Shown piece by piece: positions 42,861 to 62,783 of a DNA stretch of 64,000 bases. Position 1 is the stretch's first letter; every line of letters starts with the position of its first letter. The position numbers were made by a program, and so were the translations under genes. The notes under the pieces were generated by a model. That model was not told the DNA's origin and did not search any database. It worked only from the letters and a program-made list of their open reading frames with translations. Source of the DNA: Verrucomicrobia bacterium LP2A (GTDB lineage Bacteria; Verrucomicrobiota; Verrucomicrobiia; Methylacidiphilales; Methylacidiphilaceae); assembly GCA_000526255.1 (NCBI GenBank), contig JAFS01000002.1, positions 310,001 through 374,000 on the forward strand. The letters are read 5' to 3'.

Positions 42861-44887
42861 ACTCGGTGCGGCTGGTTTGGGTCGTCCACTTTCACCAGCC
42901 CTTGGATAATTTCCCGGAAACTTTCCGCCGCTTCCTCGATCGGGTCTGCCACCCCTTTTTGGATGCCCTGGAGCGCCATCCACGGATTCGCATGGGCCTC
43001 CACTTTTCGGGAGGATTTCTCCACCACCTCGAACGCGAAGACCCCGGACTCCTCGAAAAGCTCGGTAGAATCGTCTCCCGTAATCAAGTCGAGCTCCTGG
43101 GGGGAGGCTTCTACGAGCCGATCCTGAGCATGATCCCGGCTGCGGATGCCGCAGCACAGCTCCAAAAGACAGCGGCATGGCTCCAAGAGCGATTTCAGGT
43201 TCTTCCTCGCGGGGCCTGGCTGCCCGAATCGGTCTGGGAGCCCTGGTTTCCGGCACTTCTCTCCGAAGCGGGCTACGATTATGTGCTGCTGGAAGACCGC
43301 CTGCTCGAAAGGGCCGGCCTCGAGCCGGCCGAGCTCTGCCATCCCTTTCTGACCAGCCACTTGTCCGCTCCGATTTTGATCTTGCCGGTCGCTTCCCGCC
43401 TTTCGGCGGAGATCCCCTTTCGGCCGCTCAAGGATATCCACGCTTCGCTCGTCCAACTCTGCCATCGCCCGGAGCCCCAAATGCTGATCCTGGCACAGAG
43501 TGCCGAAGCCTACGGATTCTGGCCATCGACCTTTCACCGCTTTTACGAGGAAGCCGTGCTCGAGGAGTGGCTGACCTACCTCGAAAATCAGTCGCAACGC
43601 CTGCCCATGGAGACGCCAGGCGAAGCGTCTGCAGGGAATTGGCCAGCGGTGTTCCTCTCGTCGGGCGCTCGCACCGACCTGGAAGGGTACGCGCTGCCTC
43701 CCGCCGCGAGCCGATCCTACTTTGCTGTGCGGGAAGACCTTTCCCACCGTTTCGATGCCGATCGTTTCTTCCGGTTTCTCCATGGCGGCGCTTGGCAGGA
43801 GTTTTTCGCGAAGTATTCCGAAGCGAACTGGATGCACAACAAGATGCTCGCGATCAGCCGGCGCATCCGCAGCCTCCCTGGCGCAGAGAATTCGCCCGGT
43901 TATGACCACCTCCTCGCCGCGCAGGAACATACCCCTTATTGGCACGCGCTGAGCGGCGGGCTCTTTGCCAACTATCTGCGCGATGCGGTCTATCGACGGC
44001 TTCTCCAGGCAGAAGAGGAGTTGGATCAGGGTTCCCCGCCTCCGGCAACGGATCGGGTCGACCTCGACTCCGATCGCCAGCCAGAAGTGATCCTGCGCAC
44101 GAGTGCCTGCCGGGCCGTCGTCGACCCAGACTATGGCGGGTCGCTTGTGGAGCTGGCGTTCCGTCCCTCCCGCTACAACGTGGCAAACACCTTGCGCCGC
44201 TATGCCAAGGTCTATCCCGACCTGCCCCCGATGGAGCCGATCGAGGACTGGCATCGACGCCACCTCTTCCAAGAACACTTCATCCCCGGCGAAACGACAC
44301 TCTCCCAATTCGAGAAGGAGTCCTACATCGAGCGCGGGGACTTCATCAATCTCCCCTACCAGATTCTCTCGCTCGAAGAGGAGGGCCCCATGCGACGGCT
44401 GTTGCTCGAACGGGAGGGGGGTATCTACCTCGACCAGGAGCGGAGGGCGCTCCGCTGCCGGAAGCTTTTCGAGCTCGAGGAGCCCGATTCCCTCCGAGTG
44501 CACTACACAATCACCAACGAAAGCGAGCTGCCGCTCGATCTCCACTTCGTCTGCGAGGCAAACTACACCTTTCTTACCCCGGAAGGGTCGCGTCGATTCG
44601 TCTCCTTAGGGGAAGATCGGCTCCCCTGCGGGCTCCTTTTCGAGCGGGGGGCGATTCAGTCCTGGGATCTCGTCGACGAAACCCAGTCGTTGCGATGGGA
44701 GTGGACCCTGCCCGAAGGGCCCTCCACTCTCTGGCACTATCCCGTCTACACCATCGGGTATGCGAACGGCCAGTTTGAGCACAATTATCAGGGCTCGGCG
44801 CTCGGGATCGTCTGGCCTCTCCATCTGCCTTCGAGTGAAAAGCAAGTGTTTACGATTTTCACTCGGTTTCGGCATCTCCAAGGTTGA
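42848..44887 (+). CDS. GH57 family 4-alpha-glucanotransferase-like enzyme with DUF1925/DUF1926-type C-terminus
   Basis: This 679-residue protein begins [20 protein letters not shown], the GH57 N-terminal motif. [16 protein letters not shown] and [12 protein letters not shown] (catalytic Glu in WLPE) follow. After the barrel come a three-helix part and a long beta-sandwich with [17 protein letters not shown] and [18 protein letters not shown], as in the DUF1925/DUF1926 regions of 4-alpha-glucanotransferases. It should disproportionate maltodextrins in the cytoplasm. ATG 42848 lies inside the end of the preceding GH57 gene. Confidence 0.88.
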
Positions 44888-46955: not shown

Positions 46956-47750
46956 CTACCGCCGAGCCATCGACGTTTCGCCGACAGGAGGCTTGGTCTG
47001 CGAAAGCTGCTGCATCTGCTTGAGCCATGCCTCGTAGTCGCTCTCTGTGTCGACGACGAGAAAGCCCTTCATTGCAAAATGGCCGACGCCGCAAAGCTGG
47101 CCGCAGGCGATCTCGAAGCGACCCGTGTGGGTTGGAGTGAACCACATCGGGATGGTCAGCCCGGGGATCGCGTCCCGCTGAATCCGCATCTGGATCACGT
47201 AGTAGTTGTGCACCACGTCGCGGGAGCCCAGGTAGATGAGAACCGGTCTGCCGACCGGCACGTGCATCTCGTTCATCGTGATGATGTCGTCCTTGGAAGC
47301 CGGGTCGGTCTTGTCGAGACCGATCGGATTCATCCCGTCTGCCAGACGCATGTCCCGGCGGCCCATCCTCCCATCGGGCCCAGGATAGTGGAAGATCCAA
47401 CCAAACTGTTGGGCCACCGCCTCGAGGGTCACCGCTTCTCCCGGCCCTGGCGGATTGAGCACACGGTTTCCCCAAAGCGGGACGGAAAATCCGAAGAGCA
47501 GCACCATTTCCGCGAAAATGATCGTCCACTCCAGATGCTTGGGCCAAGCGGCCTTCAGCCCCTCGTAGCTCGCCTTCGGGCTCTTGTCGGCGCGAAAGCG
47601 CATCAGAGCATAGACGAAAAATCCAAACCAGATGAGGAAGAGAATCAGCGAGAACCAGAGGATGGCCTCGATGAACTCGTCGATCTGCCGTCCATGCTCG
47701 GACATGCAGCGCGAAATGCCACTCAGCTCAAGAAGAAGTGCGAACACCAT
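46956..47750 (-). CDS. coxB: Cytochrome c oxidase subunit II
   Basis: This 264-residue protein has two N-terminal membrane helices (FALLLELSGI and IEAILWFSLILFLIWFGFFVYAL) plus a periplasmic cupredoxin domain. The CuA ligands are intact: His in DVVHNYYV and CGQLCGVGHFAM (C-x3-C-x3-H-x2-M). QFGWIFHYPGPDG is the aromatic pre-strand. No cytochrome c domain is fused at the C-terminus. It is the last gene of the cox cluster, which is unusual since subunit II commonly comes first. It overlaps the small gene before it by 23 bases. Confidence 0.94.
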   Translation of the reverse strand: MVFALLLELSGISRCMSEHGRQIDEFIEAILWFSLILFLIWFGFFVYALMRFRADKSPKASYEGLKAAWPKHLEWTIIFAEMVLLFGFSVPLWGNRVLNPPGPGEAVTLEAVAQQFGWIFHYPGPDGRMGRRDMRLADGMNPIGLDKTDPASKDDIITMNEMHVPVGRPVLIYLGSRDVVHNYYVIQMRIQRDAIPGLTIPMWFTPTHTGRFEIACGQLCGVGHFAMKGFLVVDTESDYEAWLKQMQQLSQTKPPVGETSMARR

Positions 47751-48548: not shown

Positions 48549-48851
48549 TCACTTCACTGAGTTCAACTGATCCACGTAGCAGCAAAGAAACAGGACAAGT
48601 AACACCGCAACGAAAACAACCGCAAGTCCCATGAGGTAATGCACGGTCTTCTTTTCGGAGAAAAAATGCATCAGGATGCCGAGCGCCAAAATCGCCTGCG
48701 TTCCCGCAACCAGGAGGCCTACCCCCAGGTTTCCGCTGCCGAGGGGGAGGTAGGACGCCGCGACGTTGATTACGGCGAGGACCAGGAGCAGCCCGAAGAC
48801 CTTCACGTATGCGGGAATCTGCTTTGTTGGATCGTGCGTTTCTTCGTTCAT
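48549..48851 (-). CDS. coxD: Cytochrome c oxidase subunit IV (prokaryotic COX4 type)
   Basis: This 100-residue protein has three hydrophobic helices (VFGLLLVLAVINVAASYLPL, VGLLVAGTQAILALGILMHFF, VHYLMGLAVVFVAVLLVLFL). The ILMHFF stretch resembles the COX4_pro family. It follows coxC by 27 bases. It should stabilise the oxidase core and bears no cofactor. Confidence 0.82.
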   Translation of the reverse strand: MNEETHDPTKQIPAYVKVFGLLLVLAVINVAASYLPLGSGNLGVGLLVAGTQAILALGILMHFFSEKKTVHYLMGLAVVFVAVLLVLFLCCYVDQLNSVK

Positions 48852-48878: not shown

Positions 48879-49682
48879 CTAGAGCAAGTAGAGGGTGGGA
48901 AAGAGAAAGATCCAGACCAAGTCAACGAAATGCCAGAATAGCCCGGCCACCTCGACGCGGTTGGCCAAATGTTCCGGGTTGGTTCGATAGAGCTTTGCTC
49001 CTGGCCCCCAGAAAAAGCCGAGCACCAACAACCCACCAATGATGTGGAGGCCATGAAGCCCGGTCATCGTAAAGTAGGTGGCGAGGAACGTGCTGTAGCG
49101 AGGCGTAAAATTCGACCACCATTGGATGTCGCTCTTCGGAATCTCAAGCACCTTCTCTTCCCCGGCGGCTGCCGGGCGTCCGAAGATGGACTGTAGCTGG
49201 TAACCGAAGCTCCCCGCGTCCTCGGCGTCCGGGAGGATGCGGAGCACGTTGCTCTTCATCGCTTCCTCCGGGGTCATTTCCAGATGCCCCGTGATCTCCT
49301 GGCCATTGTTGAGGATGACCCCGTAGTGATGAAGCTTGTCCTTGTACTCCAGGGACTTCACGCAGAGGAAGAGGACGCCGCAGACCAGCGTCGCGCCGAG
49401 CCATCTCCGGTAGCTCTGGAACTGGCGCATCTTGAGAGCCGTCCAGGCCATCACCATGGTGATGCTCGAGGTGATCAGCACGACCGTGTTGAAGAGCCCC
49501 ATCGGCACGTTCAGCAGGTGGTGCGGCCAATGGGTCGCTCCCATGCGCAGGAAGATGTAGGCGGAAAAAAGCCCTCCAAACAACATGACTTCGGACGCGA
49601 GGAAGAGCCAGATGCCGATCTTGGCATTGTAGGCGCCCGTATCGGGACGCGCTGTGACGTTGTAGGGGATTTCGATTTCCAT
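48879..49682 (-). CDS. coxC: Cytochrome c oxidase subunit III
   Basis: This 267-residue protein has an N-terminal KIGIWLFLASEVMLFGGLFSAY segment with the conserved Glu, and FTMTGLHGLHIIGGLLVLGF near the end, both family marks. Between helices, at about residues 120-192, there is an inserted polar stretch (GVILNNGQEI to KSDIQWWSN) not found in ordinary short subunit III proteins. It follows coxA by 18 bases. The inserted part may contact the neighbouring cytochromes or Alternative Complex III. Confidence 0.92.
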   Translation of the reverse strand: MEIEIPYNVTARPDTGAYNAKIGIWLFLASEVMLFGGLFSAYIFLRMGATHWPHHLLNVPMGLFNTVVLITSSITMVMAWTALKMRQFQSYRRWLGATLVCGVLFLCVKSLEYKDKLHHYGVILNNGQEITGHLEMTPEEAMKSNVLRILPDAEDAGSFGYQLQSIFGRPAAAGEEKVLEIPKSDIQWWSNFTPRYSTFLATYFTMTGLHGLHIIGGLLVLGFFWGPGAKLYRTNPEHLANRVEVAGLFWHFVDLVWIFLFPTLYLL

Positions 49683-49700: not shown

Positions 49701-51584
49701 TTAGACGCTGGAGAGCTTGGGCTCGGGAACCTTCGATTCTTCCTCCACCCACTGAGGGAGGTAGTCGTGCGCTGCGCCGGGGACGCTGTATTCGTAGGGT
49801 CCGCGATAGACAGCCATCGGATGGGTAAAGTTCCCATGCCCGGGGGGGGTCGGGGCCGCCCATTCGAGCGTGTTTGCCTGCCACGGGTTGTCGGACGTCA
49901 CCCTTTTTCCGCGCCAGATGCTCCAGAAGAAATTGATGATGAATGGAATTTGACCGATGGCGAGGATCCAGGCCGAAACGGACATCACCTGGTTGAGCCA
50001 GAGAACGGGTTGGGCCATCTGCCAGCCGGCGCCGCCATCGTACCAGCGACGATGCACTCCCGCGAATCCTTGGATCAGCATCGGGAAGAAGACCCCGTTG
50101 AAAAAGATGATGGTCATCCAAAAATGCACCTTCCCCCAGAATTCGTTCATCATCCGCCCCGTCGCCTTGGGGAACCAGTAGTAGATCCCGGCAAAGAGGC
50201 CCATGATCGAGGCTGGAGCCATCATATAGTGGAAATGGCCGATCACGTAGTAGGTGTCATGGAGCACCATATCCGACGCTGTCCAACCGAGCGGCAAGCC
50301 GGTCAATCCGCCAATGCCAAACATCGGCAGCCATGCGAGGGCGAAAAGCATGGGAACCGGGAGCCGGATCGATCCGCCCCAAAGAGAGAGAAGGAGCACG
50401 GTCCCCAGCAGTACCGACGGGATCGAAATAATCGTGGTGAAGATCTGGAAGAAGGTGGTGATGCTCTGTCCCATCCCGGTCATGTACATATGATGGGCCC
50501 AGACGACCATCGAGAGGAAGCCGATCGAAAGCAGTGAGTAGACGAAGATCTTATAGCTCCACAGCGGCTTCCGGGTGTTATTCGCGATCACCTCGCCGAC
50601 GATCCCCATGGTGGGCAAAATCTGGACGTAGACCTCCGGGTGGCCGAGGAACCAGAAGAGATGCTGCCAGAGCAGGGCGGAGCCGCCCCCGCTCACTGGC
50701 CAATGGCGCCCTCCGATGACAAGGCCATCGGGCGAGAAGAAGCTCGTGCCGAAGAGCCGGTCCATGAGCTGCATGACCGCCGCCGATTCGAGAGGCGGAA
50801 AGGCCAGGAGCAGGAGAAACGCGGTGACCAGCTCCGACCAGACGAAGACCGGAAGTCGCATCCATTGGAGGCCCGGGGCCCGAAGCTGAATGATCGTGGC
50901 AATGATATTGACCGAGCCGAGCAGAGACCCGGTGATATTGAACGCCATGCCGATCAGCCAGAGAGTCTGGCCATTGAGGATCGGCTCAAAGCCCATTCCC
51001 GTGTCGGAAACGTTGGCCAGAGGAGGGTAGGAGGTCCAACCCGACTTCGCCGCACCTCCGGGCACCAGGAAGCTTCCGAGCATGATCAAGACACCCACGA
51101 AAAAGGTCCAGAAGCTCGCCATGTTGAGGCGGGGAAAGGTCATGTCCGGAGCCCCGATCTGCAGGGGAACGACGAAATTCCCGAAGCCGGCGAAGAGCGC
51201 CGGGACGATCGCCATGAAGATCATCATCGTCCCATGGATGGCCCCGAAGGAATTGTACAGGTTGGGGGTCATCACTCCGCCGGGAGCGAGGTTGGCTCCA
51301 AAAACGGCCGTCAAAAGGGGTCCGATCACAGGCACGGGCTTCCCCGGGAAGGAGAGCTGCCAGCGCATCACGACCATCAGCCCGAAGCCGAAGAGGGCGA
51401 CCAGGAGCGAGGTGATCATGTACTGAATCCCGATCACCTTGTGATCGGTGGAAAAGACATAGCGCCTCCACCAGGAAAGCTCGGGATGATGTTCGTGATG
51501 GCCGGTTCCGTGGGAAGGGGCCTTACCCTCGCCGCCTTGTGGCTGTGCCGTCTTGTGCCTCTGCTCGTCCATATCCTGCCGCAC
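49701..51584 (-). CDS. coxA: Cytochrome c oxidase subunit I
   Basis: This 627-residue catalytic subunit has a His-rich polar N-terminus. Ligands are all visible: FGAIHGTMM (low-spin heme), GHPEVYV (CuB His and cross-linked Tyr), WAHHMYMTG (CuB pair) and VIGHFHYMM (high- and low-spin hemes). The GHPEVY tyrosine marks an A-type heme-copper oxidase that reduces oxygen and pumps protons. It is the first gene of coxA-coxC-coxD-three small genes-coxB, with a 250-base gap from the cytochrome c gene upstream. Confidence 0.96.
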   Translation of the reverse strand: MRQDMDEQRHKTAQPQGGEGKAPSHGTGHHEHHPELSWWRRYVFSTDHKVIGIQYMITSLLVALFGFGLMVVMRWQLSFPGKPVPVIGPLLTAVFGANLAPGGVMTPNLYNSFGAIHGTMMIFMAIVPALFAGFGNFVVPLQIGAPDMTFPRLNMASFWTFFVGVLIMLGSFLVPGGAAKSGWTSYPPLANVSDTGMGFEPILNGQTLWLIGMAFNITGSLLGSVNIIATIIQLRAPGLQWMRLPVFVWSELVTAFLLLLAFPPLESAAVMQLMDRLFGTSFFSPDGLVIGGRHWPVSGGGSALLWQHLFWFLGHPEVYVQILPTMGIVGEVIANNTRKPLWSYKIFVYSLLSIGFLSMVVWAHHMYMTGMGQSITTFFQIFTTIISIPSVLLGTVLLLSLWGGSIRLPVPMLFALAWLPMFGIGGLTGLPLGWTASDMVLHDTYYVIGHFHYMMAPASIMGLFAGIYYWFPKATGRMMNEFWGKVHFWMTIIFFNGVFFPMLIQGFAGVHRRWYDGGAGWQMAQPVLWLNQVMSVSAWILAIGQIPFIINFFWSIWRGKRVTSDNPWQANTLEWAAPTPPGHGNFTHPMAVYRGPYEYSVPGAAHDYLPQWVEEESKVPEPKLSSV

Positions 51585-51834: not shown

Positions 51835-52494
51835 CTACTCACCCTTTTTTTCCGCCTTCTCTCCGGATAGGGACCCAAGCTCGTCGACCTTCCATGGTGC
51901 CGCATGGCCGCCACATTCGGCGCGGACCGCCTTCACCTCTCCTTCCTCGATGGCGGAGGCGTGACTCCCCCACGACTGACGCAGGAAGGTCAGGATGGCC
52001 GCGATCTTCTCGTCGGTCAGCACGGTTTTCCAGGCGGGCATCATCCCATTGTACTCGGCCCCCGACACCTTGACCGGCCCCTGCAGGCCCCCAATCAGGA
52101 TCGCCGTGAGGACTCGCGGGTCTCCATTCACCCATTCCGAACCGGCGACCGGGGGGAACTGGCCGGTCATTCCCTGCCCGTTGGGTTGATGGCAAGCGGC
52201 GCAGTTCGCCTGGTACAGCTCTCGGCCGAGAGCTGTCGGATCGACAGCCGGCGCTTTCGCCGCCGCTCCCCCCGAGGCATTCGCCGCACTGCCATGCGCC
52301 GGCGGCGTCGGCGGCAGGCCAGCAAGGAGTCCGCTCGCGTCATAGACGTCCCAGCGAAATCCGCCACTATATCGGAAGAAATAGGCGATCGCGAAGAGGA
52401 CCACGATTGCCGCAAAGGCGACGAAGGAGCAGGGGATCTGCTCTCGAGGCCGATCTCCCGCCACGCGCTTCTCCGGTTCGACTTCTTGATTCAT
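51835..52494 (-). CDS. Membrane-anchored mono-heme cytochrome c
   Basis: This 219-residue protein has one membrane helix (CSFVAFAAIVVLFAIAYFF) near the N-terminus, an Ala/Pro-rich linker, then a class I cytochrome c domain. The heme site is ANCAACHQPNGQGMTG, with the distal methionine in YNGMMPAWKTVLTDEKIAAILTFLRQ. A charged C-terminal tail of about 40 residues follows. The ATG at 52494 overlaps the ccoO-like stop (ATGA). By position it could hand electrons from Alternative Complex III to CuA. A longer open frame to 53181 crosses the ccoO-like gene and is not the coding start. Confidence 0.9.
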   Translation of the reverse strand: MNQEVEPEKRVAGDRPREQIPCSFVAFAAIVVLFAIAYFFRYSGGFRWDVYDASGLLAGLPPTPPAHGSAANASGGAAAKAPAVDPTALGRELYQANCAACHQPNGQGMTGQFPPVAGSEWVNGDPRVLTAILIGGLQGPVKVSGAEYNGMMPAWKTVLTDEKIAAILTFLRQSWGSHASAIEEGEVKAVRAECGGHAAPWKVDELGSLSGEKAEKKGE

Positions 52495-53078
52495 TGGCTC
52501 TGATCGGCCTCCGCCGGGGGCACTCTCTGGAGGGAAAGCAGATAGGCGACGAGCGCCCTCGCTTCCGGCCTCGGCACGACTTGAAATCCAGGCGCCAGCG
52601 CGGCGCGGCCCGCAAGGGGTAAGGCATCGGGCAGCGGCGTCCCGAGCAGCGGGACGCGAGCGTAGAGATACCGGTAGGACGGCATCAGCGAGCCGGGAAA
52701 GATCGTTCGGGGATCGTATAACAAACGGTAATACCAACGGACGTCGGTGCGACGCTCTCCTACGTTGGCGAGGTCGGGCCCAAGGCGGAGCACGCCCAGC
52801 GGAACGATATGCTCCTCCCGGTACTCGGGCGGCGTCGTCCGACGCGCGCCCCACCCCCGGGCAATATCTGACCCGAGGTTTGCCGGACGAACGACCTGCG
52901 TGTGGCAGGAAGCGCACCCGTTGGCCGCATAGATTCTGCCGCCGACGGCGGCTCGCCCGAAGGGTGCTCCGCCGGGGCCGGCCGGCCCGAGCTTCGTCAG
53001 GGGCATCCAGACGAGAAGAGACCATCCCGCTCCTGTCGCAAGCAGGATGCCGAGGAGCAGACGTTTCGGTTCCGTCAC
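52491..53078 (-). CDS. CcoO/FixO-like mono-heme cytochrome c
   Basis: From GTG 53078 (AAGGAG ten bases upstream; GTGA overlap with the ccoN-like stop) this gives 195 residues. A membrane helix (LLLGILLATGAGWSLLVWMPL) precedes YAANGCASCHTQVVRPANLGSD, the exact CcoO pattern (NGCxxCHTQxVRP). GPDLANVGERRTDVRWYYRLLYDPR and SLMPSYRYL continue the match. CcoO passes electrons to CcoN in cbb3 oxidases. Here the paired CcoN homologue lacks metal ligands, so this cytochrome cannot serve a normal cbb3 oxidase. Confidence 0.87.
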   Translation of the reverse strand: MTEPKRLLLGILLATGAGWSLLVWMPLTKLGPAGPGGAPFGRAAVGGRIYAANGCASCHTQVVRPANLGSDIARGWGARRTTPPEYREEHIVPLGVLRLGPDLANVGERRTDVRWYYRLLYDPRTIFPGSLMPSYRYLYARVPLLGTPLPDALPLAGRAALAPGFQVVPRPEARALVAYLLSLQRVPPAEADQSQ

Positions 53079-54532
53079 GGCGTCCGCGCTCCTTCCATCG
53101 CCACACCCGGAAGCGCTGCCTTCTCCCCCTCGCGTCGATTCGCCCCGCTTTCCACGAGGAGCCAAAGAAGATGGAGACCAAAGACGGCGTGAGCCGCCAA
53201 CAGAGCCATCGCCGGGGCCGCCGCGCTGCGCAGGAAGGGGAGAAGCGAAAGGATCACCTCATGGATGGGAACCTCGGCATTATCGAGCGCAACCCCTTGA
53301 AAAAGCCCCCCGACGGCGAGCAGGCCGGCCAGAAAGCTGATCCCGTAGCTGCTGAGCAGGAAGTGCGCCTTCGCCAATCCCACGGACGGCCAGGATCGGC
53401 CGAGCACCCGCGGCAAGATGGTGTAGAGCAGAGCAAAGAAGGTCATGCCCAAAAAGCCGTAAAGGAAGAGCGTCAACTGAGCTTCTTCCAGGACGGTGTA
53501 GTGCACGTAGCGGCTCCATGCCGGCAGGACCAGCACCGCACCAAGCCCAGCGGCTACCAGGAAGGAGCCCATGCCGAATCGCAGGAAATGCCAGCCGGGA
53601 TCCCACTGTTTCCCCTCCGCCGGCGCTCCGCGAGCCGCCGCCCAAAACCCCAACCCGATCGCGACCGCCGCCGCCCAGAGCAAGAAACGGGAGGAGACCC
53701 CCGTCGAAACCATCCAGAGGGGGAACGGCCCGCCCACCAGATGGGCCATTCCGGCAAGATTCGCGAAGAGCACCCAAGCCCAGAAAGCCCAGCGGCCTAG
53801 CCCGGCGAAGGACGCCGGCCGACCGAGGAAGCCGGGGAGGAGCAGGTGCATGGCCCCAAGAGCGAACGCCCCCAACCCTGCGTAGAGGAGCCCGTCATTG
53901 AACCACCATTCGAGCGATCCAATGGCCACCCCGCGCACCGACGGATCGTGCAACCAGAGCGCCGCCGCTCCTCCAGCCCACGGAATCCAGACAAGTCCCA
54001 GAAGCAGGAATCTCGATGCGAGCGAACTCTCCTCCCACCGGCGCACCAGGACGGCGACGAGCCACCCCGCGGAGAGGAGATAGGCCATCCCGAGCGAAGG
54101 CAGGGAGAATGTCGGCAGTCCAAGCCAGGAGAGAGAACGGCTTTCCCCGGCCAACACTCCGGTGATCCCGCTCCACAATCCCAAATTCCAGAGGAAGGAC
54201 GAGGCGAGAAACCACCGTCCGCCGGGAAGAGGAAGCCTCCCACCCTTCGTGACGGCCCAAAGAACCGCGCAGAGCCCCATGGGGATGCCGAATCCGTAGA
54301 CGAAGCTCAGGAAAGCCGCCGGGCTGATCCGTCCGAAGGTGAGCCAGCCCCATGTGCCCAGAAATCGGGGATCGACGAGCTTGAGGCTGCCGAGCAGCGC
54401 CAGAATGCTCGCCACCCAGAGCCAGACGGCCGCCGGCACGACCAACCCAAGGACGGGGACGCGCAAGGACGATACCGCGTCCCGGGTTCCAGCCCTTACC
54501 GGCGTCTCCTCGCATTCCGAAGTTTCTGCCAT
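53075..54532 (-). CDS. CcoN-like membrane protein lacking heme and copper ligands
   Basis: This 485-residue protein has about twelve membrane helices. It keeps CcoN landmarks: LTFGR at 64-68, WWFNDG at 209-214, GMAHLVGG at 261-268, and a C-terminal TVLEEAQ at 346-352 before FALLYTILPRV. In active cbb3 subunit I these places read LTFGRxxPLHTN, WWYGHN, GPHHLHYT and IGHVHSG. Here the low-spin heme His is Ala, the GHN His is replaced by Asn-Asp, only one His of the HH pair remains, and both helix X His are gone. It cannot bind the usual hemes or CuB. I start at ATG 54532 (GGAGG ten bases upstream); ATG 54541 and 54595 are alternatives. Confidence 0.82.
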   Translation of the reverse strand: MAETSECEETPVRAGTRDAVSSLRVPVLGLVVPAAVWLWVASILALLGSLKLVDPRFLGTWGWLTFGRISPAAFLSFVYGFGIPMGLCAVLWAVTKGGRLPLPGGRWFLASSFLWNLGLWSGITGVLAGESRSLSWLGLPTFSLPSLGMAYLLSAGWLVAVLVRRWEESSLASRFLLLGLVWIPWAGGAAALWLHDPSVRGVAIGSLEWWFNDGLLYAGLGAFALGAMHLLLPGFLGRPASFAGLGRWAFWAWVLFANLAGMAHLVGGPFPLWMVSTGVSSRFLLWAAAVAIGLGFWAAARGAPAEGKQWDPGWHFLRFGMGSFLVAAGLGAVLVLPAWSRYVHYTVLEEAQLTLFLYGFLGMTFFALLYTILPRVLGRSWPSVGLAKAHFLLSSYGISFLAGLLAVGGLFQGVALDNAEVPIHEVILSLLPFLRSAAAPAMALLAAHAVFGLHLLWLLVESGANRREGEKAALPGVAMEGARTP

Positions 54533-54551
54533 GATTGCCATTCCTCCGCCA

Positions 54552-54962
54552 TCAGGGTTTCGGAGCGGGAGAAGGCCGCTGTCGCAAGAGCGCACCGGGA
54601 AGAAGAACCTTCGATGGGCCGACTTCCTTGCTCTTCAGCCGCTCTCCTTCCAACTCCATCGCCCGCTCGATAGGCAGGGCGACGATCCCTTTGTCCCGAT
54701 CGATCCAATGGTATCGGCCCAGCGTTTCCCGATCGGCCTTGCGCAAGGCCTCGAGCCGCTCGACCCGCTCGGTCAGCGCCTGCTTCGCGTCCCTTTCCTC
54801 CGCCTGCGTCAAGCTCCGGGTGATCAGAAAGACCCCTACAGCCGGCCAGACGAGCAGGAATACACCCCACCAGTACGCCATCATGCCCGGAGATCGGTTC
54901 CCTCCGGAAGGCTCTCGAACGGCTTTCCCTTCCCCTCTGCTGCCATCGTCCTCGTTCGGCAT
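54552..54962 (-). CDS. Small single-span membrane protein of the Act/cox locus
   Basis: This 136-residue protein has a polar N-terminus, one helix (MMAYWWGVFLLVWPAVGVFLI), a coiled-coil-like stretch (QAEERDAKQALTERVERLEAL) and the segment YHWIDRDKGIVALPIERAMEL. That last motif resembles short proteins found next to caa3 oxidases (W-x-D-x-x-x-G-x-V-x-I-P-I-x-x-A-M). It lies between actF and the ccoN-like gene with 12- to 20-base gaps. An accessory or assembly role is inferred from context. Confidence 0.65.
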   Translation of the reverse strand: MPNEDDGSRGEGKAVREPSGGNRSPGMMAYWWGVFLLVWPAVGVFLITRSLTQAEERDAKQALTERVERLEALRKADRETLGRYHWIDRDKGIVALPIERAMELEGERLKSKEVGPSKVLLPGALLRQRPSPAPKP

Positions 54963-54974
54963 GCGGGTTCTCCT

Positions 54975-56183
54975 CTAGCTGACTACCTCCAGCGACTCGC
55001 GCAACCGGGGGTCGTGCTTGGGATAGAGCTCGCAGGAGACGAGCCGCCGCAAGAATGCGCCCGCCATGAGGCACCCCATTCCCGCCCAGACAACGACCTC
55101 GAGCACCCCGATCGCTACCGCCTTTTCGAAAACCGCAGGAAGGATGAGCCAATAGAGCTCGGCCGCCTGCATCAGAAGCACCCAGGCAGCGGTCAGCGCA
55201 AGCATCTTCGGATTGCGCTTGGTCGCTTGCGAGAGAAGCAGGAGAAAGGGCACGAAGAATCGGCCGAGCACCAGGCCGATCGCAAACCAGTTCCAGCTTC
55301 CCCTGTTGCGCTGGATGAAGAAATAGGTCTCCTCGGGGATATTGGCATACCAGATCAACATATACTGACTGAAGGCGAAATAGCCCCAAAGGGCCGTGAA
55401 GGCGAAGAGCAGCTTGCCCAGGAGGTGGAGATGTTCTTCGGTCATCTGCGGAAGGTAGCCCCTTCCCCGCAACCAAAGAAGGATCAGAATCCACAGCGCC
55501 AGGCTGGCCCCGGCCGCCCCCACGAAGACAAAACCTCCCCAGAGGGTCGAACCCCAACGGAAGTCGAGCCCCATCAACCAATCGATCGCCGCAAAGGTGA
55601 TGCAGGCGCCATAGACGAAGAGAAGGCCGTAGGAGAACTTCTGCATGCGCACCGTGTGCCATGGATCGCTGTCGCGATCCTGGCTGCGGGAGCCGTTCCA
55701 GAGAAAGAGCGCGGCAAGGATCCAAAACCCGAAGAAAAATACCGCCCGGATCGTAAAAAACGGGAGATTGAGGTAGGCCGACTTCGCTTGAAGTGCCCGG
55801 TCGTGAGCGAGGGCGGGACTCGTCCACTCGTAGAGATAATGGCCCCAAAAGGCATCCCAGAGGATCGGCAGAAAGAGCAACGCAACCCATGGGAAGAGGC
55901 TGGCGATGTTTTCCGCCTGCCGGCGCAGGAGGACTCCCCATCCCGCATTGGTCACGTAGTGGAGCAGCACCCAGAAGAGCGCTCCGGCACAGAGGCTGAA
56001 GAAGAAAAAGAAGGAAAAGAGCCAGCCATGGAAAAATTCCTTGGGATGCCACCAGGCTCCTGCGAACGAGGCCGTCAGGAGCAGGGCGCCCGCGCTCTGG
56101 AGCCGCCCCCCGAGCGCCTTGATGTGCGCCGCCGGAAGGGGAACAGAGGCGCGAAGCTCGGGAGCAGATTCGGTGTGACCCAT
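54975..56183 (-). CDS. actF: Alternative Complex III subunit ActF
   Basis: This 402-residue membrane protein has about ten helices and repeated aromatic motifs (SFAGAWWHPKEFFHGWLFSFFF, LFLPILWDAFWGHYLYEW, FAFSQYMLIWYANIPEE). These match ActF, a shorter paralogue of the ActC/NrfD-type membrane anchor. In structures of the complex, ActC and ActF hold the quinol site region and the possible proton paths. It follows actE by two bases. Confidence 0.9.
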   Translation of the reverse strand: MGHTESAPELRASVPLPAAHIKALGGRLQSAGALLLTASFAGAWWHPKEFFHGWLFSFFFFFSLCAGALFWVLLHYVTNAGWGVLLRRQAENIASLFPWVALLFLPILWDAFWGHYLYEWTSPALAHDRALQAKSAYLNLPFFTIRAVFFFGFWILAALFLWNGSRSQDRDSDPWHTVRMQKFSYGLLFVYGACITFAAIDWLMGLDFRWGSTLWGGFVFVGAAGASLALWILILLWLRGRGYLPQMTEEHLHLLGKLLFAFTALWGYFAFSQYMLIWYANIPEETYFFIQRNRGSWNWFAIGLVLGRFFVPFLLLLSQATKRNPKMLALTAAWVLLMQAAELYWLILPAVFEKAVAIGVLEVVVWAGMGCLMAGAFLRRLVSCELYPKHDPRLRESLEVVS

Positions 56184-56185
56184 CG

Positions 56186-56797
56186 CTATTTCCCTTCCAT
56201 CTCCGGACGTTCCGCAATCGGAACGTCCGCGAGCGTGGCCTTTTGACTGAGCTGCAAAGCCCGGATGTAGGCGACGACGGCCCAGCGCTCCTCCACGCTC
56301 AGGTTGGCTCCGTATCCCAGCATCAGCCCCTGTCCATGGGTGACGACGTAGAAGATCTGGCCATCAGGCATCTGCTGGGTGTGATCCGAATGGTAGTTGG
56401 GCACTCCGACAAGGCCGTACTGGGTCGCAATGCCGTTTCCCGATCCCGTCGCTCCGTGGCAGGCGCTGCAAAAGATTTCAAACCGTTCCTTCCCCTTCTT
56501 GAGCGTTTCCGCGGTCACGGAAATAGGGATCCCATCCCCCCAGTAATCTCCCATCATCCCGGTGTTCAGATAGGGGTGATCGACCGGAGCGCTCATCGGA
56601 ATCGTCCCTGATACGGGGTAGCGGCTTGCCCGACGGTCCGGAAAGAAGAGGCTGGGAGCCTGCTCCTTCACTTTGGCCTGTCGCACCATGTCGGGGAAAA
56701 TCTCGATGGGGTTGCGCGTCGTCTTGGCGCCGCGGAATCCGGTCACGCTGACCACCGCAAACACAAGGCAGGCGAGGAACAAGAGGAAGGTGCGCAT
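56186..56797 (-). CDS. actE: Alternative Complex III mono-heme cytochrome c ActE
   Basis: This 203-residue protein has an N-terminal helix or signal (FLLFLACLVFAVVSVTGF) and one heme site, FCSACHGATGSGNG, with a Met-rich distal region (GQGLMLGYG). The pre-heme part contains NPIEIFPDM, typical of ActE. It receives electrons from the Fe-S/heme chain and passes them to the oxidase cytochromes. It starts 13 bases after the actCD stop. Confidence 0.92.
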   Translation of the reverse strand: MRTFLLFLACLVFAVVSVTGFRGAKTTRNPIEIFPDMVRQAKVKEQAPSLFFPDRRASRYPVSGTIPMSAPVDHPYLNTGMMGDYWGDGIPISVTAETLKKGKERFEIFCSACHGATGSGNGIATQYGLVGVPNYHSDHTQQMPDGQIFYVVTHGQGLMLGYGANLSVEERWAVVAYIRALQLSQKATLADVPIAERPEMEGK

Positions 56798-56810: not shown

Positions 56811-58823
56811 CTATCGAGGAATATAGGTGAGTCGTCTCCCTCCCAACCGTTCCAGGAATTCCCGGCTTTCGGCCGGCGAGAACGCGGGATCCCTCGCCTC
56901 GATGACGAGGAAGAATCCGTCGTCGGTCGCCCGTCGAGAGAGCTCCCCCCAATTCCAGACCGGGTGGTGAGGTCTCGGAAGCCGCGAGAGGAGCACGACG
57001 GCCAGAAATCCGCTGAATGCGGCGAAGAGAATGGTCAGCTCGAGCAAAACGGGGACGAAGGCGGGGAGGCTGAAGTAGGGCTTGCCTTGGACGACGGTCG
57101 CGTAGAAAAGGCCCTGCAGTTGACCCGTCGTCAGGCTTCGGAGCAATTCGGGGCGCGGGACCGAGGTGACCGTCACCATGGCAATCCCGATGAGGAGGCC
57201 CAGCAAACCTCCCATCAACACGAAAAAGGAGACACGGGATTTGGGTAGGCGCATGGCCTGCTCCATGCCATGAATGGGATGGGGCGCATAGGCATCCCAC
57301 CAGACGTATCCTTTCTTTCGGGTCTCCTCGCTCGCCCTTCGCAGCTCCTCTTCCGAAGAAAACTCGGCTCCCAATCCGTAGATTCCCTGGTCCGGCAGGG
57401 GCGCCGGCACCTCGGCCGCAGCTTCCGGCTCCCGCGGCCGACGCGGCTTCGCCAGCAGGGTCTTGATCTCCGCGATGGAGATCGCGGGCAAGACCCTCAG
57501 AAAGAGCAGGAAGAGGAAAAAGAAGAGGCCGACACTGCCGAAGAAGAGCCCCCAATCCACCCAGGTCGGCAGATAGTGGCGCCAAGAGGAAGGCAGGAAA
57601 TCCCGCTCGAGGCTGACGACGATGATCGAGTAACGCTCGAACCACATGCCCACGTTGATGAGCACCGATGCCGTCCAGAGGATCCACGGATGGATTCGAC
57701 AGAGCCGGAACCAGAAGATCTGAGGAAGGAGGACGTTGAATCCGAACATGAAGAAGTAGGTGGAGCGGTCGGGGCCCGTGATCCGATTCCAGAACGTGTA
57801 TCGTTCGTAGGGATTGGCTCCGTACCAGGCCATGAAGAGTTCGATCAGATAGGAGTAGCCGACCAGCGATCCCGTCGCCAACAGCACCTTCGCCATATTG
57901 TCCAGGTGCTTCTCCGTAATCATGTCTTTGAGGCGAGGATAGGCGGCGCGCAGCGGAACCATGAGCGTGACGATCATCGCAAAGCCGCTGAAGATGGCTC
58001 CCGTAATGAAATCGGGTGGGAAGATGGTCGTGTGCCATCCAGGCAGCACGGTCGTCGCGAAATCGGTGGAGACCACCGAGGCGACGGAAATCACGAGCAC
58101 GCTCACCACTCCCGCGATGCAGAGGTATCCCGCCTCGTAGTGGCGCCACGCCCGAAGCGAACCCGTCCACCCCCAGCAGAGCACATGGTAGAGCCGTTTC
58201 TTCCACAGCTTGGTTGCCCGGTCCCGAAGGGAGGCGATATCGGGAAGCAGGCCGAAATACCAGAACAGGCAGGAGACAGTGAAATAGGTTCCCACGGCAA
58301 ACTCGTCCCAGAGGAGCGGAGCACGGAAGTTCTGCCAGACCGCGTACGACTCCGGGACCGGCACCATGTACCAGAACATCCATTGCCGACCGATGTGGAA
58401 GAGGGGGAAGACCGCCGCGCAGAGAACGGCGAAGATCGTCATGGCTTCGGCCGCGCGGTTCACGGAGTTCCGCCACCTTTGGCGCGTGAAGAGCAGGATC
58501 GCCGAGATCAAGGTGCCGGCGTGCCCGATCTCGATCCAAAAGACGAAGTTGAGGATGGCCACACCCCAAAAGACCGGGCTCTGCAGCCCCCAAACGCCCA
58601 AGCCCGTGCTGATGAAATAGACGACGACCAGCGGTACCGCTCCCGCCAAGAGTCCGAAAGCCACCACCGCAAGCCACCACCAGAGGGGAGCCGGCCTTTC
58701 CACCACGGAGCAGACGGCGTCATTCACCCAAGACGCTTCCCGCTCGTTCAAGACGAGCGCCGGGCGCGCCAGAAGCTCCCGACCGCTTTCCTCTCTATCG
58801 ACCGCGTTCTCCACCCTCGGCAT
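56811..58823 (-). CDS. actCD: Fused Alternative Complex III subunits ActC and ActD
   Basis: One continuous frame of 670 residues. Residues 1 to about 455 are ActC (NrfD/PsrC-like): ten helices, with VFWIEIGHAGTLISAIL, FPLFHIGRQWMFWY, WDEFAVGTYFTVS and NVGMWFERYSIIV. A Pro/Ala/Glu linker (KPRRPREPEAAAEVPAPLP) follows. From about residue 482 to the end it is ActD (DUF3341): YGLGAEFSSEEELRRA, WDAYAPHPIHGMEQAM, PAFVPVLLELTILFAAF and FFLVIEARDPAF. The two are separate genes in the well-studied complexes. ATG 58823 has AAGGA upstream. No frameshift is needed to join them. Confidence 0.9.
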   Translation of the reverse strand: MPRVENAVDREESGRELLARPALVLNEREASWVNDAVCSVVERPAPLWWWLAVVAFGLLAGAVPLVVVYFISTGLGVWGLQSPVFWGVAILNFVFWIEIGHAGTLISAILLFTRQRWRNSVNRAAEAMTIFAVLCAAVFPLFHIGRQWMFWYMVPVPESYAVWQNFRAPLLWDEFAVGTYFTVSCLFWYFGLLPDIASLRDRATKLWKKRLYHVLCWGWTGSLRAWRHYEAGYLCIAGVVSVLVISVASVVSTDFATTVLPGWHTTIFPPDFITGAIFSGFAMIVTLMVPLRAAYPRLKDMITEKHLDNMAKVLLATGSLVGYSYLIELFMAWYGANPYERYTFWNRITGPDRSTYFFMFGFNVLLPQIFWFRLCRIHPWILWTASVLINVGMWFERYSIIVVSLERDFLPSSWRHYLPTWVDWGLFFGSVGLFFFLFLLFLRVLPAISIAEIKTLLAKPRRPREPEAAAEVPAPLPDQGIYGLGAEFSSEEELRRASEETRKKGYVWWDAYAPHPIHGMEQAMRLPKSRVSFFVLMGGLLGLLIGIAMVTVTSVPRPELLRSLTTGQLQGLFYATVVQGKPYFSLPAFVPVLLELTILFAAFSGFLAVVLLSRLPRPHHPVWNWGELSRRATDDGFFLVIEARDPAFSPAESREFLERLGGRRLTYIPR

Positions 58824-58849
58824 CTTCATTCCTTGGCTTGGCGCTCTGC

Positions 58850-61800
58850 TTAGCCCGCACGCCGGCTCGTATCCTCGATGGCTCCTTTTTGCTCTCCGGC
58901 GCTTGGACGCTCCTCCCCGCCTCCGAGATCGGGATTCGGATTCCGGATGCGCGCGAGGTAAGAAACCCGTGGGCGCACGTTGAGATACTCCAACACCCGG
59001 TAAGCTCGGGAGTCCGCCTTCCAGCGAGAAACCTGGCTTTCCGGATCGGCCAGATCTCCGAAAGTGATCGCTCCGGCAGGGCAGGCCTCTTGGCAAGCCG
59101 TCCGCACGCTATCCCGAGGAATGGATTGCGGCACTCCGTCGCGGGCTCGGACAAGGGTAGCAATCTTGGCTTCCTCAATCCGTTGGACGCAAAAGGTGCA
59201 CTTTTCCATTACCCCGCGCATCCGGACGGTCACGTTGGGATTGCGCTGCATCTGCACGGTCAGCGGGCTTCCTAGGGATCCGAACGGACCCAGGTAGAGA
59301 TTCCCCACCGACCATGGGCCGATCTTTTTCGTCTTCAGGACGTCGCGCTTGTTGAAATCGAAGAAATTGAACCGACGGACCTTGTAGGGGCAATTCGCCG
59401 CGCAAGCCCGCGTGCCGATGCATCGATTGTAGGCCATCACGTTCAGCCCCTCCTCGCTGTGTACGGTGGCATTCACGGGGCAGACCGTCTCGCAGGGAGC
59501 ATTCTCGCACTGTTGGCAGAGCATCGGCTCGGGCATCGTGCGCAGATCGGCTTCGGTGCCCGTAAAGTAGCGGTCGATACGGATCCATTGCATGATCCGG
59601 CCACGGATCACCTGCCCCTTGCCCACGATCGGCACGTTGTTCTCGCTCTGGCAGGCGATGACGCAGGCATTGCATCCGACGCAGCTCCCCAGGTCGATCA
59701 CCATTCCCCACTGGTAAGCGCCCTTGCTCACCCCTTCGGTATAGGCGGGTCCGGGCTCCTTGGCCCCGTAAGGGTTGGGATAGATCGAAACCTCCGGGAC
59801 CGAGCGTGCCTCCCCATCCTCTCGCTTGGCGAAATCGGGTACCGCGCGGTACTCGGCCAGGCTTCCCTCCCGCACCAGGCCCCGATCGCCGGGATCCGCG
59901 TGAAGTTGCGCCTGTGCGATGGGGTAGCTCCTTCCGATCGGAATGACGGAAACCCCGGAGGCGTAGCGCAAGGTCTCCCGAGACCGGAGCAAGTAGGCAT
60001 TGAACCCATGACCTTGCGCCACTCTCCCACCAAAGGAGCGTCCGTACCCGAGAGCGAGCGAAAGAGCGTTTTCGGCATGCCCCGGAACGATGAGCGTCGC
60101 GGCCTCCAGTCGGCGGCCGCCGCTTTCCAGCAGCACCAGTTCCGCCCGCCGGGAATCCCCGCCGCTGGAGGAGAGCCCCAGCTTGCGAGCCGTTTGCGGG
60201 CCCATGAGGACCGCATTATCCCAGGTAAGCTTCGTAATGAAATCCGGCAGCTCCTGCAGCCAACCGTTGTTGGCCTGGCGCCCGTCGCCGATTTTCGTGC
60301 AGGGATAGAAGGAAAGCTCGAGACCGCCCGCCGCCCGCCTTCGAGCCAGATCCTTCGCAACCACGGGTTGTGCTTGATCCCAGCGCGGCTCGGGAGAGAG
60401 CGGACTGGGGGCGCTTCCCGGCCAGAATCCGTCGTGAAGGCACCGCCGCCATGCTTCCGTTCGATCCTTTTCCTCGACGCGACAGAGCCGCGCGAAGTTC
60501 TCCTGCACCCTTCTCGCCGCGATGGGTAAGGGCAAGATGGGCGGCCCTCCGGCAAGGGGGGGCTGCGAAAGCTGCATCGGGCTCGCTTCTTCCGGCGCCG
60601 CCAAGGCGTCCGTCTCTCCGCACAAGGCGGCCAGGACATCGATCTCCGAGAGAGCGCCGAAAAGAGGCAGGATCATGGGCTGCGCGCTCAGATAGGTCCC
60701 ATCCTGCCCGAAGGCATCCCCCCAACTCTCCAGATAATGAGCCATGGGAGCATGCCAGTGGCTCGCCTGCGCGGTCTCGTCCGCCAAAAATCCGAGATGG
60801 ATCACCTGCGGCACGCTCCGCTGCAGCCGCAGCCAATCGAGATCCACAGGCGCTGTATAGACGGGATTGGCTCCGAGAATCAGAAGTGCCTGGACATCTT
60901 CCTTCCGGATCTGCTCCGCAAGGGACTCGAGCGGCTCAGCTTCGTCCTCCAGAGCCGGAATCAGATCGAGAGCCGAGCGTTTTTCGAACGCCATGTTCAT
61001 CGTCAGAGCCAGCAGCGCTGCGGGGGCCGGAAAGTCTCGACCCATGACGATGAGAGGGCGCTTGGCTCGGACCAAATCCTGGGCGACGGCCTTCGCCCAC
61101 TTGCGCACCGGCTCTCCCCAATCCTCCCCCGCCGCCCGACCGAAGGGCTCGAGCTGCGCGAGCCCGGCGGCCGCGAGCTCGCGCGCCACCAAAGCAAGAA
61201 AGGACGCCTGATCTCCCACCCGCAAAGCGAGCCGGTGATCGGCGATCGCGCCCGTTGAAGTCAGCCGCTCCTCGACCGCGTAAATCCGGCTCATCTCGTC
61301 CCCTGGATTCAGCAGCCTGCGGCGCGCAGCAATCCCGCGCACAGCCCACGGCCCTTCCTGATCTCCCGAAGCAAAGTCACAGCCGATGGAAAGAATGACA
61401 TCGGCTTCCGCCCAACGAGGAAGAAGAGTCAGCCGTTCCCCGAAGAGCTGCCGGGTAGCCGCAAAGCGATCCCCATTCCCCAGAGGACTGTAGGTGGAGA
61501 GAATGGCTTCCGGATAGTGCTTTCGGAACTCCTCCCGCAGGCCGGCGAGGGTGGGAGAGACGGTCGGTTCGACGACGACCGCAAGCCCCGCCCCCTTGGT
61601 TTCTCGCCAGGAGCCGATCGACTTGCCCAGGAGCTCGACAAACCGCTGGCGGGTCGCGGGATAACCATTCTCCAGGAAGCCCGCCGCCCGATCCGGATCG
61701 TAAAGATCGAGGACCGAAGCTTGAAGCTGCGGGGTTAGTCCCGCGTCGGACGCAATTCGATTCGCTTCCAGATGCGTCGGCCGACCCTCATAGGTCGTCA

Positions 61801-62104
61801 CAAAGAGAGGGACCCCTCCGTAGACCGCGGGGGCCGTCGTCGCATAGAGGAGCGGCTTCCCCGGAACCACCCACTCGGGACTCGCGGTGTACGGGACCAG
61901 ATGACCTTCCGGGCGTCGACAGCTAGCCAAGCCGATCCCTCCGAGGGCAAACGACGCCCCCATGACCCGCAGGAAGTTCCGGCGGCTGATCGATTCCCAG
62001 GCAAAATCGCGGGACGGCTCGGTAGCCTCCAAGGAGGACGCCGCTCCGACCGGGGGCAAGGCATCGCTCCCCGCAGGCCTCGGCCTCGTGTTCTTGGGTT
62101 CCAT
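58850..62104 (-). CDS. actB: Alternative Complex III subunit ActB (molybdopterin-like domain plus Fe-S domain)
   Basis: This 1084-residue protein has a twin-arginine signal (ISRRNFLRVMGASFALGG at residues 39-56), so Tat export is likely. A large molybdopterin-oxidoreductase-like part, which in the known complexes carries no molybdenum, precedes a C-terminal ferredoxin-like part. That part has four cysteine groups: CVGCNACVIAC, CQQCENAPCETVCP, CIGTRACAANCP and CTFC...CQEACP, for three [4Fe-4S] and one [3Fe-4S] type clusters. ATG 62104 has AAGGAGG ten bases before it. It follows actA by 25 bases and precedes actCD by 26. Confidence 0.95.
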   Translation of the reverse strand: MEPKNTRPRPAGSDALPPVGAASSLEATEPSRDFAWESISRRNFLRVMGASFALGGIGLASCRRPEGHLVPYTASPEWVVPGKPLLYATTAPAVYGGVPLFVTTYEGRPTHLEANRIASDAGLTPQLQASVLDLYDPDRAAGFLENGYPATRQRFVELLGKSIGSWRETKGAGLAVVVEPTVSPTLAGLREEFRKHYPEAILSTYSPLGNGDRFAATRQLFGERLTLLPRWAEADVILSIGCDFASGDQEGPWAVRGIAARRRLLNPGDEMSRIYAVEERLTSTGAIADHRLALRVGDQASFLALVARELAAAGLAQLEPFGRAAGEDWGEPVRKWAKAVAQDLVRAKRPLIVMGRDFPAPAALLALTMNMAFEKRSALDLIPALEDEAEPLESLAEQIRKEDVQALLILGANPVYTAPVDLDWLRLQRSVPQVIHLGFLADETAQASHWHAPMAHYLESWGDAFGQDGTYLSAQPMILPLFGALSEIDVLAALCGETDALAAPEEASPMQLSQPPLAGGPPILPLPIAARRVQENFARLCRVEEKDRTEAWRRCLHDGFWPGSAPSPLSPEPRWDQAQPVVAKDLARRRAAGGLELSFYPCTKIGDGRQANNGWLQELPDFITKLTWDNAVLMGPQTARKLGLSSSGGDSRRAELVLLESGGRRLEAATLIVPGHAENALSLALGYGRSFGGRVAQGHGFNAYLLRSRETLRYASGVSVIPIGRSYPIAQAQLHADPGDRGLVREGSLAEYRAVPDFAKREDGEARSVPEVSIYPNPYGAKEPGPAYTEGVSKGAYQWGMVIDLGSCVGCNACVIACQSENNVPIVGKGQVIRGRIMQWIRIDRYFTGTEADLRTMPEPMLCQQCENAPCETVCPVNATVHSEEGLNVMAYNRCIGTRACAANCPYKVRRFNFFDFNKRDVLKTKKIGPWSVGNLYLGPFGSLGSPLTVQMQRNPNVTVRMRGVMEKCTFCVQRIEEAKIATLVRARDGVPQSIPRDSVRTACQEACPAGAITFGDLADPESQVSRWKADSRAYRVLEYLNVRPRVSYLARIRNPNPDLGGGEERPSAGEQKGAIEDTSRRAG

Positions 62105-62129
62105 CAACTCATCCCCTCCTTCGCGCAAC

Positions 62130-62783
62130 CTACCGGTGGCAGGCAGAGCAGTTGTCGGACGGCTGAATTTTCTCCTGCTCGACCAGACGCTTGCCCATCT
62201 CGGCCTGCCGTTCCCCGCCCGGAGGCTCCCATCCCAGATCAAAAACCTTTTCCTGCGGCCGGACGAAATATTCCGGATTCCGATGACAATCCAAGCACCA
62301 GCTCATGCTCAGAGGCGTCTTATGATAAACGGTCCTCATCAAGTTCACCTCCCCATGGCAACTGAAGCAGCTCACCCCACGGTTCACATGGGCGGAGTGG
62401 TCGAAGTAGACGTAATCCGGCAATTGATAGACCCGAGTCCATCGCACCGGCTCCCCGGTCTCCCAGCTCTCGCGCAACGCGGCCAGCTTCGGGCTGTCGG
62501 CTTTGACCATCCGGTGACAGGACATGCAGGTTTGGGTCGTCGGCACGTTGGAAAAACCGCTCTTTTCCACGAAGCTATGGCAGAAGCGGCAGTCGAGCCC
62601 GAGACCCGTTACATGCAGGGAATGATCGAAGGGAATCGGCTGCTTGGGCATGTAGCCGACCCGCGTGTATTTCGGAGTGAAGTAGTAGGCGATCCCGGCG
62701 ACCGTCAGGGCGGCGATGATGAGAATTCCAACGACGATCTTCCGGGGAAGCTCATTGGCCGCTTTCCCGAAGAGATTCGCCAT
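62130..62783 (-). CDS. actA: Alternative Complex III pentaheme cytochrome c ActA
   Basis: This 217-residue protein has one N-terminal helix (IVVGILIIAALTVAGIAYYF) and five CxxCH heme sites: CRFCH, CMSCH, CFSCH, CLDCH and, at the very end, CSACH. It is the multiheme subunit on the periplasmic face. It is the first gene of the act operon, and its promoter should lie in the roughly 180 bases after tRNA-Met. Confidence 0.94.
   Translation of the reverse strand: MANLFGKAANELPRKIVVGILIIAALTVAGIAYYFTPKYTRVGYMPKQPIPFDHSLHVTGLGLDCRFCHSFVEKSGFSNVPTTQTCMSCHRMVKADSPKLAALRESWETGEPVRWTRVYQLPDYVYFDHSAHVNRGVSCFSCHGEVNLMRTVYHKTPLSMSWCLDCHRNPEYFVRPQEKVFDLGWEPPGGERQAEMGKRLVEQEKIQPSDNCSACHR

Follow-up and report, generated by a model that had tools for sequence, protein, structure and literature searches.

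A CcoN homologue without heme and copper ligands beside alternative complex III in Methylacidiphilaceae, and recurrent ligand loss among act-linked CcoN of Verrucomicrobiia

The window analysed here, a 64,000-nucleotide stretch of Verrucomicrobia bacterium LP2A (contig JAFS01000002.1, positions 310,001–374,000), encodes a 485-aa CcoN homologue (53075–54532, minus strand) in which the positions that bind heme and copper in cbb3 oxidases have, with a single exception, been replaced. Judged from these replacements, the loss of catalysis in this protein is near certain. Such losses recur in the act-linked CcoN of other Verrucomicrobiia: on a tree of alternative complex III (ACIII) proteins, the CcoN ligand state changed at least 14 times. 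The window protein is probably a pseudo-CcoN, a cofactor-free anchor that would hold CcoO and CcoP between ACIII and another oxidase.

The CcoN homologue and its gene cluster

On the minus strand of the window the cluster reads actA, actB, an actC–actD fusion, actE, actF, a small ORF, ccoN, ccoO, a ccoP-like gene, coxA, coxC, subunit IV and coxB, with actABCDEF of ACIII present in order. ActA (62130–62783) is a pentaheme cytochrome c with five CxxCH motifs, and ActB lies in an ORF of 58850–62242 whose true start is probably internal; gene order contributed to both assignments. ActC is fused in frame to ActD in a single 761-aa ORF (56811–59096, true start internal to the ORF) matching the separate actC and actD of relatives; the fusion is found in Methylacidimicrobium, and the genes are separate in most other Verrucomicrobiia clusters. 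ActE (56186–56797) was identified as a mono-heme cytochrome c by Cytochrome_CBB3 (4.6e-13) and gene order, and ActF (54975–56183), which has no Pfam match, is named from gene order, its order and homology being kept across clusters. A small one-TM protein of unassigned family (54552–54962, minus strand), which contains YHWIDRDKGIVALPIERAMEL, follows; in most clusters, whether CcoN is intact or degraded, a relative of it fills the place between actF and ccoN. In intact relatives the CcoS (FixS) gene sits just upstream of ccoN, and since the corresponding gap in the window measures 19 nt (54533–54551), there is no room for it.

Both heme c subunits of a cbb3 oxidase are encoded alongside the CcoN homologue. 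The CcoO/FixO-like gene (52491–53078; FixO 1.3e-18), which starts at a GTG overlapping the ccoN stop codon, specifies a membrane-anchored mono-heme cytochrome c with one CxxCH (CASCH), one TM and a SLMPSY axial Met context. The CcoP-like membrane-anchored cytochrome c (51835–52494; Cytochrom_C 9.7e-13, partial ccoP 2e-8) has one TM and a single CxxCH heme motif, whereas canonical CcoP has two. An aa3-type oxidase comes next, comprising its catalytic subunit CoxA (49701–51584; COX1 5e-129, CtaD 7.8e-165), CoxC (subunit III, 48879–49682; COX3 5.5e-19), subunit IV (COX4_pro, 48549–48851; 7.6e-8) and CoxB (subunit II, 46956–47750), which carries the CuA motif CGQLCGVGHFAM and is not fused to a cytochrome c domain. 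Elsewhere in the window, two overlapping long plus-strand ORFs (40701–44887; 719 and 679 aa) resemble, by eye, glycoside hydrolase family 57-type proteins.

The window protein passed the cut-off of Pfam COX1 (6e-16) and matched NCBIfam ccoN weakly, far under its cut-off. Among the PDB relatives found, the nearest solved structures were CcoN chains only, and profile–profile comparison with two CcoN (hhalign) returned a probability of 97% (E 1.7e-11), bearing out the CcoN homology that a preliminary description of the window had claimed from sequence landmarks. On sequence grounds alone, then, the protein belongs to the COX1 fold, is related to CcoN, and keeps the fold signature, its place in the operon and its reading frame. 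It shares with CcoN of cbb3 (C-type) oxidases the FGR and WW motifs, the P-x-W loop and the ccoO and ccoP-like neighbours, and differs in lacking the heme ligands, two of the three CuB ligands, the cross-link Tyr and CcoS, and in the single heme of its CcoP-like partner. Hydropathy indicated about 12–14 segments, which fits some 12 helices, the exact count not being given by this method; an AlphaFold model from a genus-level alignment of 4 sequences (mean pLDDT 41.6) was too poor for use. The window belongs to a Methylacidimicrobium genome, orthologues in that genus, one of them in M. tartarophylax, being 79–93% identical. The genome encodes 5 COX1 proteins, which by score, with NorB tested, are two A-type, one B-type, one NorB and the window CcoN, and no second CcoN was present in any Methylacidiphilaceae genome examined. 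A reading of the window protein as cNOR (NorB), which has a related COX1 fold, was rejected: its best PDB matches are CcoN, to which it is nearer, the ligands are absent, and NorB has a gene of its own in this genome (L038, best match NorB 1e-81).

Ligand columns were read from a MAFFT alignment of the window protein, 28 relatives and two CcoN of solved structure, later extended to 138 sequences in all. The position of each ligand follows established knowledge of cbb3 structure. The seven catalytic columns read A/D/A/A/H/Q/T in the window protein. The two low-spin heme b histidines, on helices II and X, are replaced by Ala73 and Thr354; the proximal heme b3 His of helix X by Gln352 (Glu according to hhalign); the first CuB His by Asp213, within WWFND; the CuB His2/His3 pair by Ala263/His264; and the cross-link Tyr by Ala257. 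The two methods differ in helix X register by about 2–3 residues (Q/T by MAFFT, E/T by hhalign), and neither alignment places a His at any ligand position of that helix. The protein has 9 histidines (195, 229, 264, 315, 344, 390, 424, 448 and 454), of which His264, at a CuB position, and His344, a non-ligand, are the sole oxidase-conserved core histidines left. In Methylacidiphilum the equivalent positions are occupied by Ser, Glu, Ser, Ser-His, Phe and Val. The preliminary description had held that no heme b, heme b3 or CuB site remains, and this stands: every ligand save His264 is gone, and the Tyr with them. Its Ala, Asp and single His were recovered, and for its Glu/Ala in helix X the alignments give Q/T or E/T. 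It had named ligand histidines at shifted positions as grounds for abandoning the claim; in helix X, where the register differs, neither alignment shows one.

Recurrent ligand loss and its companions

The CcoN family is present in 216 of 286 Verrucomicrobiia genomes, as counted by a search that also catches canonical CcoNO. A survey for linkage of ligand-less CcoN to act genes, suggested in the earlier account and confined to Verrucomicrobiota, yielded 118 clusters of Verrucomicrobiia with actF in place, of which 83 have a degraded CcoN (at least one catalytic residue missing) and 35 an intact one (all seven present); the clusters were picked by search rank, and this ratio is not a frequency. 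Six or seven catalytic residues are missing in 69 of 84 degraded sequences. In the degraded set, mean retention over the seven catalytic columns is 13%; random sevens drawn from the 123 columns invariant in intact relatives averaged 58%, and none of 100,000 draws was as low as observed. The order actABCDEF–small ORF–ccoN–ccoO–ccoP is identical in intact and degraded clusters, and full-length CcoN is kept in all 83 degraded ones. Wherever the heme c subunits were located, CcoO has exactly one CxxCH (78/78 degraded, 34/34 intact) and CcoP at least one (81/81 degraded, 33/33 intact). Intact act-linked CcoN (e.g. L135, L137, L139 and L140) share with the window protein the cluster and its order, about 30% identity and the same GGPxPxW loop, and differ from it in retaining CcoS and the full set of seven catalytic residues. 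Downstream coxA occurs in 31/83 degraded versus 7/35 intact clusters, a weak trend, and ligand loss as a consequence of an adjacent coxA was set aside as an explanation.

Several loci depart from this pattern. In one clade (L090, L091, L092, L099 and L101) both low-spin heme b histidines persist and the ligands of heme b3 and CuB have been lost; these proteins could represent an intermediate stage, possibly as carriers of electrons by heme b alone. In the taxonomic order of the window, two loci of family f3 (L194 and L196) have a canonical fused CcoNO gene and, divergent beside it and away from act genes, a further CcoN homologue that is ligand-less and accompanied by a CcoO of its own. Outside Verrucomicrobiia but within the phylum, the matches read were fused canonical CcoNO or intact CcoN; in three of another class (L187, L188 and L197), an intact CcoN homologue and CcoO lie near a protein of about 600 aa that matches the ActE cytochrome model, which looks like a different cytochrome–CcoNO cluster.

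The CcoS gene follows the state of CcoN closely. Pfam FixS matches were obtained in 40 genomes, every one immediately 5' of an act-linked ccoN of the intact kind, and a CcoS model built from these matches placed CcoS next to 35/35 intact but 1/83 degraded ccoN, the sole exception (L073) having one ligand different. Over 14 independent tree pairs, CcoS tracks the CcoN state with at most one exception (p about 1e-4). None was found in 12 Methylacidiphilaceae genomes searched, nor did CcoG give any match over the cut-off in the Methylacidiphilaceae genomes searched. CcoS is reported to be essential for an active cbb3 oxidase (PMC7558416). Dependence on other oxidases differs in the same direction, in a comparison resting on few genomes: 3 of 31 genomes (G062, G066 and G180, two of one genus) encode no COX1 protein besides an intact act-linked CcoN, and the same holds for degraded CcoN without adjacent coxA in 0 of 45 assessable genomes. 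The latter derive from 46 genomes, 45 of which have another COX1 protein; in G046 the contig ends just after the cluster. An intact CcoN can thus be the only heme-copper oxidase of a genome, and a degraded CcoN never clearly is.

Two trees were compared, of which that of ACIII (ActA, ActE and ActF) is preferred to that of CcoN because it leaves CcoN out. On the ACIII tree the intact/degraded label changes 18 times, 14 of these changes being forced by strongly supported branches; if regain is excluded, 23–30 losses are needed, whatever the root. The CcoN tree, rooted with canonical CcoN, has intact sequences basal and most degraded ones clustered, with 5 changes, a clustering that long branches may have caused. 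By position on the ACIII tree, the intact CcoN most similar to each degraded one has a median rank of 3 among 33 (17 by chance), and the ligands were therefore lost in place and not by import. Methylacidimicrobium and Methylacidiphilum, both degraded, group together on the trees; for the genus of the window the nearest-intact rank is poor (13–32), and the ACIII tree therefore does not fix its exact point of loss.

Possible roles of the ligand-less protein

Between Methylacidimicrobium species the window CcoN gene has a dN/dS of 0.14–0.18, near that of actF (0.11–0.17) and the ccoP-like gene (0.16–0.21), with ccoO at 0.10–0.21 and coxA at 0.05–0.06. Its ORF has no frameshift, and no internal stop codon was found in any degraded homologue among the matches listed. 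These data indicate a gene under purifying selection and not in decay. The preliminary description had argued for a selected non-catalytic role from some 12 helices in an unbroken frame, a proposal strengthened by the dN/dS, the retained heme c motifs and the loss of CcoS in step; of the roles it put forward, a membrane scaffold for cytochromes beside the Act complex fits best.

An anchor of this kind could have arisen as follows. In an ancestral ACIII–CcoNOP assembly, electrons would have passed from quinol through ACIII and CcoO/CcoP to CcoN. In the lineage of the window and many others, O2 reduction would then have been handed to another oxidase, CcoN still holding CcoO and CcoP against ACIII, so that the heme c relay would no longer end at CcoN but at a soluble carrier or the oxidase that took over. 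That CcoN touches ACIII, CcoO and CcoP is a premise taken from cbb3 structures and gene order. The acceptor in the window lineage is probably the adjacent aa3 oxidase, whose CoxB has CuA and no cytochrome c domain of its own; given that coxA adjoins a minority of clusters, the acceptor would lie elsewhere in clusters without a neighbouring cox gene. The ACIII–aa3/caa3 supercomplexes of Flavobacterium johnsoniae and Rhodothermus marinus are alike in having act genes followed by oxidase genes and a heme c relay from ActE to the oxidase. We know of no CcoN/CcoO/CcoP module described between ACIII and oxidase in either of them. The published account of these supercomplexes describes none there (PMC5928083). 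The chances are about even that Verrucomicrobiia possess an undescribed assembly, in which ACIII is always accompanied by CcoN–CcoO–CcoP and the CcoN core has been switched off repeatedly to give a cofactor-free heme c bridge to other oxidases.

A possible, if less likely, variant is that CcoN anchors CcoO and CcoP to ACIII only, electrons leaving through a soluble cytochrome c or to several acceptors without contact with aa3. The 52 of 83 degraded clusters without adjacent cox genes and the several oxidases of these genomes are in keeping with it; against it, coxA is directly downstream in the Methylacidiphilaceae clusters read, and carrier-free ACIII–oxidase supercomplexes are known in other phyla (PMC5928083).

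It is doubtful that the fold was taken over for a different membrane task, such as a quinone site or a proton or ion path, with no part in holding cytochromes. Strong purifying selection on a protein of about 12 helices would agree with such a task, as would the free evolution of the former cofactor core, but ccoO and ccoP remain adjacent and the pattern of conservation points elsewhere. The columns conserved in degraded homologues all belong to those of the old fold, namely helix-packing G, P and W and the periplasmic GGPxPxW loop. Besides the ligands, the degraded set has lost the cross-link Tyr, the HFT/HYT His, the Arg that adjoins the His of helix II, and a number of core Ser/Thr that are invariant in intact relatives (columns T221, S246, T325 and S328; intact letters throughout), and no new conserved ligand, polar or acidic residue has appeared across it. 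The quinone or proton-path role that the preliminary description had offered as another option accordingly found no positive support, Tyr257 and the core polar residues being lost.

Binding of heme or metal through new, lineage-specific ligands is very unlikely: His264, His344 and His229 are left in the window protein and the first two are common to Methylacidiphilum, but His264 is kept in 27% and His344 in 21% of degraded homologues, the helix II–helix X heme site is without any His, and CcoS is gone. Still less credible is a decaying relic kept only through its place in the operon, for which the freely drifting ligand-pocket columns and the long branches might speak; dN/dS, the absence of internal stops and the full length of CcoN after so many independent losses contradict it.

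Implications for verrucomicrobial respiration

The ccoN gene of these methanotrophs is usually annotated as a high-affinity cbb3 oxidase. The Kam1 genome paper places a cbb3 oxidase with ACIII and ties it to high O2 affinity (PMC6688271), a 2021 review reports the same co-location in these methanotrophs and states, with reference to Refojo et al. 2010, that only they and Opitutaceae have C-type oxidase genes together with ACIII (PMC8498564), and a 2024 paper also names a cbb3 oxidase in their cluster (PMC11102522). We found no report of the ligand loss in the portions of the literature covered by our search, outside which Refojo et al. 2010 lay. An active cbb3 oxidase, for which CcoN homology, the adjacent ccoO and ccoP-like genes and these annotations speak, is the least tenable of the readings and can hardly be maintained, since the heme b and b3 ligands, two of three CuB positions and the cross-link Tyr are gone in every Methylacidiphilum and Methylacidimicrobium homologue examined and these genomes have no CcoS, no CcoG match over the cut-off and no second CcoN.

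The sequence thus argues against a working cbb3 oxidase in these methanotrophs, and because the CcoN of the cluster is without its heme and copper residues, a high O2 affinity needs another source, aa3 or ba3. More widely, in many Verrucomicrobiia the number of oxidases is overestimated when genes are annotated by COX1 homology. The repeated changes on the ACIII tree amount to at least 14 natural replicates in which the active site was lost while the cytochrome subunits and the place beside complex III were kept, and they therefore make a structural role of CcoN in the supercomplex testable.
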